Positions 4,079 to 60,704 of a stretch of 64,000 nt of DNA are shown here, piece after piece. The notes beneath the pieces are model-generated. The model made no database searches, was not told the DNA's origin, and saw nothing but the letters and a program-made list of their open reading frames with translations. Numbering within the stretch: position 1 is the stretch's first letter; each line of letters starts with the position of its first letter. Source of the DNA: Paracoccus laeviglucosivorans (GTDB lineage Bacteria; Pseudomonadota; Alphaproteobacteria; Rhodobacterales; Rhodobacteraceae); contig NZ_FXTK01000001.1 of the NCBI RefSeq assembly GCF_900182695.1, forward strand, positions 186,001-250,000, read 5' to 3'. The position numbers were made by a program, and so were the translations under genes.

Positions 4079-4126
4079 GTTCAGAACAAGATCCAGGCGG
4101 CTGGTCAAAATCCAATGCCGACATCA

Positions 4127-4190
4127 CGAACGTGCCGCCACGTTCGCCAGAGGGGCCCGGCACCAAAAGTCATTCACGCATTCGCGAATG
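4127..4190. promoter_or_regulatory. Two palindromes upstream of the DUF475 gene
   Basis: Bases 4127-4146 form arms CGAACGTG and CACGTTCG around a four-base centre. Bases 4179-4190 are the perfect 12-mer palindrome CATTCGCGAATG. Both lie 50-110 bases upstream of the DUF475 ATG in otherwise non-coding DNA, as expected of operator sites. The binding factor is unknown. Confidence 0.4.
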
Positions 4191-30185: not shown

Positions 30186-31885
30186 TGGCAACGACCATTT
30201 CGCGCGGCGATTACGCGCAGATGTATGGCCCGACCACGGGCGACCGTATCCGTCTGGGCGATACCGAAATCATCGTTCAGGTCGAACGCGACCTGACCAC
30301 CTATGGCGAGGAAGTAAAGTTCGGCGGCGGCAAGGTCATCCGCGACGGCATGGGCCAGTCGCAGATCAGCCGTGCGGGCGGGTCGATGGATACGGTCATC
30401 ACCAATGCGCTGATCCTTGACCATTCCGGCATCTACAAGGCCGACATTGGCCTGCGCGACGGCCGCATCGCCGGGATCGGCAAGGCAGGCAACCCCGACA
30501 CTCAGCCCGGCGTCACGCTGATCATCGGGCCGGGAACCGAGATCATCGCAGGCGAAGGCCGTATCGTCACCGCCGGCGGCTTCGACGCGCATATCCATTT
30601 CATCTGCCCCCAGCAGGTCGAGGACGCCATCGCATCCGGCATCACCACCATGCTGGGCGGCGGCACGGGTCCGGCGCATGGCACGCTGGCCACAACCTGC
30701 ACGCCGGGGCCATGGCATATCGGGCGCATGATCGCGGCGATGGATGATGTGCCGGTGAACATGCTGATCTCGGCCAAGGGCAATGCCTCGCGCCCCGAGG
30801 CGCTGGAGGAGATGGTCCGCGCCGGGGCATCGACCCTGAAGCTGCACGAGGATTGGGGCACCACCCCCGCCGCCATCGACTGCTGCCTGACGGTGGCGGA
30901 CGCGATGGACGTGCAGGTCACGATCCATACAGACACGCTGAACGAATCCGGCTTTGTCGAAAACACCCTTGCCGCGATCAAGGGCCGCACAATCCACGCT
31001 TTCCATACCGAGGGCGCGGGCGGCGGCCATGCCCCCGACATCATCAAGCTGGTGGGTGCGGCGAACGTCATCCCCAGTTCCACGAACCCCACGCGCCCCT
31101 TTACCGGCAACACGCTGGAGGAGCATCTGGACATGCTGATGGTCTGCCATCATCTGGACAAGCGCGTGCCCGAAGACGTGGCCTTTGCCGAATCCCGCAT
31201 CCGCCGCGAGACCATCGCAGCCGAAGACATCCTGCACGACATGGGCGCGTTTTCGGTGATCTCCTCGGACAGTCAGGCCATGGGCCGCGTCGGCGAGGTC
31301 ATCACCCGCACATGGCAGACCGCCCACAAAATGAAGGTCCAGCGCGGGCGGCTGGCGGATGAAACCGGCGAAAACGACAATCTGCGCGCCCGGCGATACG
31401 TTGCGAAATACACCATCAACCCGGCCATCGCGCATGGCATCGCCCATGAGATCGGCTCGATCGAGCCGGGCAAACGCGCCGATCTGGTGATCTGGGATCC
31501 TGCGATGTTCGGCGCGAAGCCCGAAATGGTGCTGGTCGGCGGCATGATCGCATGGGCGCAGATGGGCGATCCGAACGGCTCAATCCCTGTTCAGCCGATG
31601 TATATGCGGCCAATGTGGGGGGCGATGGGACGCGCGCGTCACGCATCATCCGTGACGTTCCTGTCGCAGGCGGGGCTGGATGCAGGGGTCGGTGACGGCA
31701 TGCTGAAAGCTGCGGTCGCCGTGCGCGGCACGCGCGGCATCGGCAAGGCTGACATGCGCCTGAACGCCGCGACCCCCGTGATCGAGGTCGATCCCGAAAC
31801 CTACGAGGTTCGCGCGAACGGCGAATTGCTGACCTGCCAGCCCGCGACCGAATTGCCGCTGGCGCAGCGCTACTTCCTTTTCTGA
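30185..31885 (+). CDS. ureC: Urease alpha (catalytic) subunit
   Basis: A 566-residue nickel hydrolase converting urea to ammonia and carbamate in the cytoplasm. Metal-site residues align with a constant +2 offset to Klebsiella UreC: His136 and His138 ([11 protein letters not shown]), carbamylated Lys219 ([12 protein letters not shown]), His248 and His274 ([14 protein letters not shown]). The flap and active-site cysteine/histidine stretch reads [20 protein letters not shown], and [12 protein letters not shown] holds the aspartate ligand. All key residues are intact, so an active enzyme is expected. Confidence 0.98.
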
Positions 31886-59521: not shown

Positions 59522-59845
59522 GCCTACCCCCGATTTCGAAGCGTAGGCAGAATTGCAATTTCGGGACCGCTCGGCAAGGCAGGCCAGGCCGGGATTCGTT
59601 AAACCCCTGAAACGCTGCGCAACTTGCCTTATATTATCCACGATTCATTGAAACTGGCGCGAATACATCCCGAAAAGTCCCACCAAATAAGGGTTTTGCT
59701 GACCGACTTTCTAAAAAGCCATGCGCTTTCTGCATGGCAGCATCACGCCTGCGGCTATTGTGCAAACGCAGCAAGATAGGCATGTTCGCCCTAACAAAGC
59801 GACGGACAAACCGAAGCTTTCCATGAAAACGCAAGAGTGGACGAA
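59522..59845. promoter_or_regulatory. Divergent intergenic region between apbC and the DUF1127/sRNA locus
   Basis: 324 bases without a gene, richer in A+T than its surroundings. It holds a perfect seven-base hairpin GCCATGC/GCATGGC (59718-59738). The sequence at 59761-59773 is, in reverse complement, TGCTGCGTTTGCA, resembling the motif upstream of the other two DUF1127 genes. In Rhodobacter the corresponding promoter is heat-shock-sigma dependent; I could not fix such boxes here (CTTGCC near 59621 and TTGCTG near 59696 are weak candidates). Confidence 0.5.
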
Positions 59846-60070
59846 ATGACTGTTCTAGACCTGAACCATGGCACTGCCCGCAGCGAAGCTGGCGAAACCC
59901 GTCTGGGTAGCCTGATGACCGGTCTGCGCGGCTATTTCGCACGTCGCGCGCTGTATCGCCAGACCATTCGCGAACTGCACGATCTGAACAGCCGCGAACT
60001 GGCTGATCTGGGCATCAGCCGCTCGATGATCCGCAGCGTGGCTTACGAAGCCGCCTGGGGTTCGAAATAA
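59846..60070 (+). CDS. DUF1127 protein, CcaF1-like, heading the sRNA array
   Basis: A 74-residue basic protein with a full DUF1127 domain: RGYFARRALYRQTIRELHDL (about 28-47), NSRELADLGISRSMIRSVAY, ending EAAWGSK. In Rhodobacter sphaeroides a DUF1127 protein of this size, CcaF1, sits directly before the CcsR small RNAs, shares their transcript and binds RNA. Here the stop is 10 bases before the first hairpin of the array, so the same arrangement applies. A GTG nine bases upstream is an alternative start. RNA-chaperone function is inferred from that relative. Confidence 0.88.
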   Translation: MTVLDLNHGTARSEAGETRLGSLMTGLRGYFARRALYRQTIRELHDLNSRELADLGISRSMIRSVAYEAAWGSK

Positions 60071-60080
60071 GAATAGAATA

Positions 60081-60152
60081 CCCGACCCCCTCCTCCTCCC
60101 TGGGGTCCGGGTTCAGGCGGCATCCTCCCTCCTCCTCCCTGAGGATGCCGCC
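60081..60152 (+). ncRNA. CcsR/cuckoo-type small RNA, unit 1
   Basis: Two stem-loops: 60081-60111 (arms CCCGACCCC and GGGGTC-C-GGG, one bulge) and 60116-60152 (perfect 12-bp stem GGCGGCATCCTC). Both loops contain CTCCTCCTCCCT. Preceded by ATAC (60078-60081), 10 bases after the DUF1127 stop. The loop is identical to the anti-Shine-Dalgarno core CCUCC repeated, so it could pair with mRNA ribosome sites or titrate proteins. Confidence 0.85.
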
Positions 60153-60165
60153 GCAAAGATACGGT

Positions 60166-60234
60166 AAAGCCCCTCCTCCTCCCTGGGCTTTGCAGTAAAG
60201 GCGGCCTTCCCCTCCTCCTCCCTGGGAAGCCGCC
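60166..60234 (+). ncRNA. CcsR/cuckoo-type small RNA, unit 2
   Basis: Short stem 60166-60191 (AAAGCCC/GGGCTTT) and long stem 60200-60234 (GGCGGCCTTCCC with GGGAAGCCGCC, one bulged C). Same loops. ATAC at 60159-60162. First member of the duplicated block; its short stem differs from unit 4 by a compensated A-T to G-C pair. Confidence 0.85.
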
Positions 60235-60244
60235 ACCTTATACC

Positions 60245-60316
60245 GCGGGCCCCTCCTCCTCCCTTGGGTCTCGCAGTTCAGGCGGCAATCTCCTCCTCCT
60301 CCCTGAGGTTGCCGCC
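60245..60316 (+). ncRNA. CcsR/cuckoo-type small RNA, unit 3
   Basis: Short stem 60245-60274 (GCGGGCCC with GGGTCTCGC, one G-U pair and one bulge) and long stem 60281-60316 (GGCGGCAATCTC with GAGGTTGCCGCC, one G-U pair). Same loops, the first with an extra T. ATAC at 60240-60243. Confidence 0.85.
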
Positions 60317-60329
60317 GATCAGATACGGT

Positions 60330-60398
60330 GAAGCCCCTCCTCCTCCCTGGGCTTCGCAGTAAAGGCGGCCTTCCCCTCCTCCTCCCTGGGAAGCCGCC
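60330..60398 (+). ncRNA. CcsR/cuckoo-type small RNA, unit 4
   Basis: Short stem 60330-60355 (GAAGCCC/GGGCTTC) and long stem 60364-60398, identical to that of unit 2. ATAC at 60323-60326. Second copy of the duplicated block. Confidence 0.85.
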
Positions 60399-60407
60399 AC
60401 CTATACC

Positions 60408-60479
60408 GCGGGCCCCTCCTCCTCCCTTGGGTCTCGCAGTTCAGGCGGCAATCTCCTCCTCCTCCCTGAGGTTGCCGCC
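60408..60479 (+). ncRNA. CcsR/cuckoo-type small RNA, unit 5
   Basis: Short stem 60408-60437 and long stem 60444-60479, both identical in sequence to unit 3. ATAC at 60403-60406. Confidence 0.85.
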
Positions 60480-60510
60480 AAAAATACGCCGAAAAGGCGA
60501 AACGGTTGCC

Positions 60511-60575
60511 ACGGCCCTCCTCCTCCCTTGGGTCGTAGCGCGCGGTGATGGCCTCCTCCTCCCTGCCATTGCCGC
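60511..60575 (+). ncRNA. CcsR/cuckoo-type small RNA, unit 6
   Basis: Short stem 60511-60536 (ACGGCCC with GGGTCGT, one G-U) and long stem 60542-60575 (11 bp with two adjacent G-U pairs). ATAC at 60484-60487, followed here by an extra small hairpin CGCC-GAAAA-GGCG (60487-60499). The most diverged unit, yet both loops are unchanged. Confidence 0.82.
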
Positions 60576-60582
60576 ATTCCAT

Positions 60583-60661
60583 ACGCGGCCCCTCCTCCTC
60601 CCTGGGCCGACGTTGCGCGGCGGTGCCCCTCCTCCTCCCTGGGCACCGCCGCTTTTCATTT
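60583..60661 (+). ncRNA. CcsR/cuckoo-type small RNA, unit 7, with terminator
   Basis: Short stem 60583-60613 (CGGCCC/GGGCCG core extended past one bulge) and long stem 60617-60652 (perfect 12 bp, GCGGCGGTGCCC). Same loops. The long stem runs into TTTTCATTT, so it doubles as the Rho-independent terminator of the whole locus. ATAC at 60581-60584. Confidence 0.85.
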
Positions 60662-60704
60662 CAGAATGCTTTCCAATTCCCGCCGGGCGGTTTAAGCGCA
60701 GGGC

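Follow-up and report, generated by a model that had tools for sequence, protein, structure and literature searches.

The closest described system is the ccaF1-CcsR operon of Rhodobacter (Cereibacter) sphaeroides, in which ccaF1 is co-transcribed with CcsR1-4, with an RpoHI/RpoHII promoter, a terminator and processing by RNase E (excerpts of PMC10253847 and PMC8625941). Earlier work, as cited in the available part of PMC8307010, gives the flhR mRNA as a target of CcsR1-4 and describes the pyruvate dehydrogenase complex as affected. In rhizobia, the small RNA NfeR1 contains three CCUCCUCCC motifs, which act as redundant seeds repressing ntrB at its start (PMC10746234, in the sections available), and a single Sinorhizobium family with a varying number of anti-Shine-Dalgarno (anti-SD) hairpins is proposed in the available text of PMC3927594. 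A literature search found no paper on Paracoccus with CcsR, nor on a Paracoccus denitrificans sRNA with anti-Shine-Dalgarno.

The window analysed here, a stretch of 64,000 nucleotides of Paracoccus laeviglucosivorans, shows a DUF1127 gene followed by an array of fourteen hairpins. This array is very probably the 3' part of the Paracoccus ccaF1-CcsR (CIN1/"cuckoo") operon, which would contain the DUF1127 gene and seven two-hairpin sRNAs, processed from the transcript, whose loops would block ribosome-binding sites. The identification draws on the anatomy, the predicted structure, the conservation, the shared locus and the size range of the array. The parts of the locus are the following:

59730-59743, plus strand: conserved box CTGCATGGCAGCAT upstream of the DUF1127 gene, similar to the published VtlR (LysR) site, with one mismatch to the Paracoccus consensus
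59758-59786, plus strand: promoter-like pair TTGTGC-N17-CATGTT, putatively RpoH-like
59846-60070, plus strand: DUF1127 small protein of 74 aa, the ccaF1 counterpart (PF06568, 45.5 bits, E 6.4e-12)
60080-60152, plus strand: unit 1, hairpins 1-2 (RF02791, 49.3 bits; fold)
60160-60234, plus strand: unit 2, hairpins 3-4 (RF02791, 41.2 bits; fold)
60245-60316, plus strand: unit 3, hairpins 5-6 (fold and loops; no RF02791 match)
60324-60398, plus strand: unit 4, hairpins 7-8, a copy of unit 2 (RF02791, 40.1 bits; duplication, 98.1% over 160 nt)
60405-60479, plus strand: unit 5, hairpins 9-10, a copy of unit 3 (fold and duplication; no RF02791 match)
60505-60575, plus strand: unit 6, hairpins 11-12 (fold; aligned in 12 Paracoccus-type loci; no RF02791 match)
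60583-60652, plus strand: unit 7, hairpins 13-14, the stem of hairpin 14 being of 12 bp (RF02791, 45.7 bits; fold)
60653-60656, plus strand: TTTT 3' of hairpin 14, probable intrinsic terminator (sequence; invariant in 12 aligned loci)

The array shows 14 exact copies of CTCCTCCTCCCT, all on the plus strand between 60090 and 60640, in a scan of the window that allowed one mismatch and used none. Shuffled sequence contains the motif 0.16 times on average and once at most, and no further exact copy was found beyond the array in the 4.30 Mb draft genome (82 contigs). The minimum free energy of 60071-60665 is -273.7 kcal/mol, versus -205.9 (sd 6.91) for 100 shuffles (z -9.81), and the predicted fold places every loop motif in its own hairpin, with the unpaired loop shifted by one base in hairpins 5, 9 and 11. 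When the right arms were dealt among the 14 hairpins, the mean stem score, 8.79 in the real array, was on average 4.85 and at most 7.64, and none of the 2000 swaps equalled the real value. The original prediction of fourteen hairpins with an invariant loop, on stems that vary and still pair, is borne out by the exact motif copies, by the one predicted hairpin per motif and by the arm swaps. It had also described an alternation of short and long stems, which holds on average, weaker stems alternating with stronger ones, but fails for hairpins 3/4 and 7/8, where the order is reversed (stem score of 10, then 8); across the 41 even-numbered arrays, the mean stem scores of the alternating hairpins are 7.8 and 10.4. 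Open reading frames span the array on both strands and a protein-coding array was considered, but conserved pairing together with variable stems fits an RNA. Hairpins 3-6 are repeated as hairpins 7-10 with 98.1% identity over 160 nt, a recent duplication, so the 14 hairpins are not independent samples. The loop-to-loop spacing is 36-44, with a single exception of 61. This 61-nt spacing precedes the last four hairpins and contains a small predicted hairpin without the loop motif (60487-60499, CGCC-GAAAA-GGCG), and a spacing of 60-67 is present at the equivalent place in L075-L084. Hairpin 14 and the TTTT behind it are probably a terminator, since the TTTT is kept in all the aligned loci.

The DUF1127 gene adjoins the array upstream: its stop codon ends at 60070 and the first stem begins at 60080. 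Farther upstream, on the opposite strand, are the genes encoding an Mrp/NUBPL-type ATPase and then MraZ, and downstream of the array is a gene encoding an RlmJ-type methyltransferase. Cereibacter johrii (L091), which stands in for R. sphaeroides, and Paracoccus show the same locus, mraZ-mrp-DUF1127-array. The C. johrii array contains eight loops, that is, four two-hairpin units, which agrees with the number of CcsR RNAs described in R. sphaeroides, and because of this match and of the shared place, the arrays of the window and of C. johrii are regarded as the same locus. None of the window units reaches an Rfam gathering score (RF02791, best 49.3 versus 65.3; RF02344, best 57.8 versus 58.8). 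Four of the seven match RF02791 (CcsR1) below the cut-off, with 40.1-49.3 bits, and units 3, 5 and 6 show no match to it even at E up to 10. RF02344 (ar14) gives 57.8 and 54.1 bits in the window array, and its cut-off is exceeded in P. kondratievae (L083; 59.2 bits). In the C. johrii control only unit 1 is above the RF02791 cut-off, with 106.2 bits, and units 2-4 (39.4, 43.6 and 46.6) score like the four window units that match. Since the model describes CcsR1 of the C. johrii/R. sphaeroides group, missing its cut-off says little about CcsR-type units; the window array lies within the ccaF1-CcsR operon by locus, gene order, loop and unit, and outside it by the Rfam CcsR1 cut-off alone. The CcsR/cuckoo identity first proposed from the sequence agrees with the shared locus, the upstream DUF1127 gene, the loops and the sub-threshold RF02791 matches, and the proposed division into seven two-hairpin units with C/U-rich loops of anti-SD type agrees with the loops, the fold and the locus comparisons; the covariance-model check suggested at that time gives RF02791 matches in four units, but none at the gathering score. 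Elsewhere in the window, on the minus strand, two Rfam families are above their cut-offs: 5_ureB_sRNA at 30337-30626 (130 bits) and terC RNA at 4109-4168 (57.8 bits).

Relatives of the locus were fetched with the DUF1127 protein alone, and the best 80 of at least 231 confirmed loci were compared. The ten top-ranked DUF1127 relatives in this set all belong to Paracoccus. At least two hairpins with the core TCCTCCC (UCCUCCC in the RNA) lie downstream of the DUF1127 gene in 77 of these best 80 loci, versus none of 80 in the reverse-strand control of the same stretches, and two recognisable hairpins are absent in the remaining three (L122, L149 and L151). Clusters of at least two CCTCCTCCC cores are present in 67 of the best 80 and absent from 13, seven of which were inspected by eye. 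The flank contains mrp in 72 of the best 80 loci and rlmJ in 12, 11 of which belong to Paracoccus. In the converse search, a DUF1127 match was found at 29 of 30 loci fetched by the loop pattern alone. Of 394 genomes of the family, only 121 contain a close-set run of three full CCTCCTCCC loops, and a tandem of full loops is therefore no general feature there. Six arrays (L087, L112, L116, L119, L146 and L153) show many loops shortened to TCCTCCC or CTCCTCCC-like forms, which suggests UCCUCCC as the minimal loop core.

Arrays with at least four cores number 63 among the best 80 of at least 231 loci plus the window. In 50 of the 63, none of 200 within-array arm swaps equals the real pairing; the remaining 13 contain at most eight hairpins each, and in L115, which has near-identical repeats, 148 of 200 swaps equal the real value. 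In swaps between species with all arrays pooled, none of 300 equals the real value at each of six positions. When only Paracoccus was used, just two of the six positions are clean: swaps equal the real value in 5 of 300 cases at the second hairpin, 8 of 300 at n-2 and 24 of 300 at the last, and at hairpin n-1, with 300 of 300, the swaps are uninformative.

The 63 arrays contain 4 to 14 hairpins, and four of them reach 14: those of the window, P. yeei, P. aestuariivivens and Xinfangfangia pollutisoli. Among the best 80 of at least 231 loci, 14 hairpins are common to L075, L076 (P. aestuariivivens) and L145. The exact 12-mer, counted genome-wide so that variant loops are missed, occurs at least 14 times on one strand in seven of the 101 genomes of the genus, the own genome included (G000, G009, G026, G032, G058, G060 and G074), and is absent from three of the 101. 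A locus of another genus, L048 (G264), carries 26 loop hairpins next to its DUF1127 gene, and array size overall ranges from 2 to 26 hairpins. In the L048 array, a group of three hairpins recurs about every 140 nt. Fourteen hairpins are thus the top of the Paracoccus range and are shared, the expansion being large and not singular. The sevenfold expansion had been called unusual and a comparison of unit number proposed; this comparison favours the description weakly, with 14 at the top of the Paracoccus range and so few genomes at 14 or more, but the same number is found at other loci, P. yeei and P. aestuariivivens included, and is exceeded at one.

For transcription, processing and repression, the relatives in R. 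sphaeroides and Sinorhizobium serve as the model. A stress promoter would give one transcript with the DUF1127 gene, encoding an RNA-binding protein of the CcaF1 type, and the seven two-hairpin sRNAs, and the final hairpin would double as the terminator of this operon transcript. RNase E, modulated by CcaF1, would release the mature sRNAs by cutting the 3' UTR. The two C/U-rich loops displayed by each sRNA would pair with the extended Shine-Dalgarno (GGAGGAGG type) of selected mRNAs, whose translation would fall. A larger number of units most likely raises the loop dosage of each transcript, and units would be gained and lost through tandem duplication. A query for the expected 16S 3' end, which the loops were proposed to mimic, gave no match in the draft genome.

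Many identical loops on one transcript, retained while the stems drift, would also be expected of a sponge, as first suggested from the sequence, in which the 14 loops titrate in bulk ribosome-binding sites, CcaF1 or another CCUCC-binding protein and not chosen mRNAs, and CcaF1 is itself reported to be RNA-binding and to affect CcsR maturation (PMC10253847, in the part available). We consider such a sponge improbable: NfeR1 base-pairs at a specific start site through redundant loops (PMC10746234, in the sections available), and array size varies so widely, both among the 63 arrays (4-14) and overall (2 to 26), that a fixed titration need is not suggested. A role limited to attenuating or stabilising the 3' end of ccaF1, without action in trans, would be in keeping with the array forming the DUF1127 3' UTR and with the TTTT after the last hairpin, but neither protection nor termination needs an invariant loop on variable stems and CcsR1-4 are reported to target the flhR mRNA in R. 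sphaeroides (available part of PMC8307010), which leaves this explanation a very slight chance. That the array is a neutral or selfish tandem-repeat expansion without function is scarcely credible; the recent 160-nt duplication at 98.1% and the 26-hairpin array in another genus are what it would predict, but pairing is kept across diverged stems and the hairpins are kept at 77 of the best 80 of at least 231 loci. Processed sRNAs whose loops pair with selected mRNAs are the reading preferred here.

Upstream of the DUF1127 gene, a box with at most three mismatches from CTGCATAGCAGCAT is present in 79 of 81 upstream stretches, and with at most two in 74 of 81 (1 and 0, respectively, in mononucleotide shuffles); the consensus was derived from the Paracoccus rows of the same set, so the fit of Paracoccus to it is partly circular. 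The sequence TGCATRGCWGCAT has a single occurrence in the own genome. The box resembles the reverse complement of the Brucella VtlR motif given in the available part of PMC12595884, with at most two mismatches in 53 of 81 stretches, versus 1 of 81 in dinucleotide shuffles, and the window box shows three mismatches to that motif over 15 positions, by eye. In B. melitensis, according to the same excerpt, VtlR activates the sRNA AbcR2 together with three DUF1127 genes (PMC12595884). The VtlR box of A. tumefaciens and B. abortus has the fixed bases GCAT-N3-TG-N3-T (PMC7486931, text available), all of which are present in the conserved box save for AG in place of TG. The exact 15-mer TGCATRGCWGCATTG occurs in two of the six genomes examined, at three places, and the ORF listing of one of these places (L187) shows no DUF1127-like ORF. 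The TTGTGC of the promoter-like pair starts fourteen bases past the box, and a lenient promoter pattern, which the window fits as TTGTGC-N17-CATGTT, fits 58 of 79 loci as a raw count. The available text of PMC7486931 contains no link between VtlR and the R. sphaeroides ccaF1-CcsR operon, and among the papers matched by the literature search LysR occurs together with CcaF1 in two, once in each, and with CcsR in none.

The pattern GGAGGAGG-N3-10-ATG is found at 29 places in the genome, two of them being the antisense of the array, versus 3 in the reversed control, and many of the 28 translated sites open just short frames. Candidate targets among them read, from their protein sequences, as putative pdhA, sucC, dctA and tctB. 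The pdhA-like gene of the own genome (L165/L188) shows GAGGAGGAGG four bases before the ATG, with 10 nt complementary to the array loops, the tenth pairing with the closing base of the stem. In the pdhA sample, in which 39 of 41 genomes were matched and 30 Paracoccus loci were returned (the own and one 99% identical included), complementarity to the loop of at least 8 nt is found in 17 of the 30 Paracoccus loci and in 4 of 19 loci of other genera; at least one start in this set (L231) is apparently wrongly chosen. In C. johrii (L227), as in Luteovulum azotoformans (L233), the match has only 6 nt, and in C. changlensis (L226) it has 8. None of the control genes shows complementarity of 8 nt or more (mrp, 0 of 72; rlmJ, 0 of 12; DUF1127, 0 of 34; amidase, 0 of 9). 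The apparent conservation of the pdhA complementarity is moderate, and the match could instead reflect high expression of the gene, with a correspondingly strong ribosome site. The gene is a candidate direct target of the loops, unproven, and a pointed lead because pyruvate dehydrogenase is named in R. sphaeroides.

The box and the pdhA match lead to a tentative proposal, which we regard as rather doubtful: a VtlR-like LysR activator, besides a stress sigma factor, would control the operon through the putative box conserved in Rhodobacterales, so that DUF1127 proteins and anti-SD sRNA, the two arms of the rhizobial VtlR regulon, would be fused in one transcript, and pdhA would be a direct target in many Paracoccus through loop pairing of 8-10 nt. 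The AG/TG mismatch in the box lowers the odds of this proposal. The VtlR-like upstream box and the pdhA ribosome site complementary to the loops are possibly new.

The locus is a real, well-formed and conserved operon of an already understood type, and its size lies at the upper end of the range. With it, a stress-sRNA operon studied in other bacteria is extended to Paracoccus. The locus also belongs to a natural size series (2 to 26 hairpins) suited to asking whether unit number sets regulatory dose, and offers a testable link from the ccaF1-CcsR operon to VtlR-type regulons in rhizobia and in Brucella. Compared through C. johrii with CcsR1-4/ccaF1 of R. sphaeroides (RF02791; CIN1 locus, cuckoo family), the window shares mraZ and mrp upstream, the DUF1127 gene, the two-hairpin units, the CCUCCUCCC loops and the upstream box. 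It differs in having seven units instead of four, in the stems, in the loop spacing between units (39-44, with one of 61, versus 66-76 in C. johrii) and in the rlmJ gene downstream, which was not found in the C. johrii flank. Alpha-r14/NfeR1 of rhizobia (RF02344) shows the same CCUCCUCCC loops in hairpins with variable stems, and the window scores 57.8 bits against its cut-off of 58.8, but NfeR1 is a three-hairpin sRNA with its own RpoD-type promoter, and a DUF1127 gene is unmentioned in the available sections of PMC10746234. SmelA075/SmelA099 of Sinorhizobium likewise contain anti-SD hairpin modules in varying number, but have three or four hairpins and several copies per genome (PMC3927594, text available). 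The VtlR regulon of B. melitensis likewise places DUF1127 genes and an sRNA under the control of a single LysR-type activator with a similar box, whose A. tumefaciens form differs from the window-type box at one fixed position; in the account available in PMC12595884 the regulon consists of several separate targets in B. melitensis, whereas the window shows one operon with a putative regulator.
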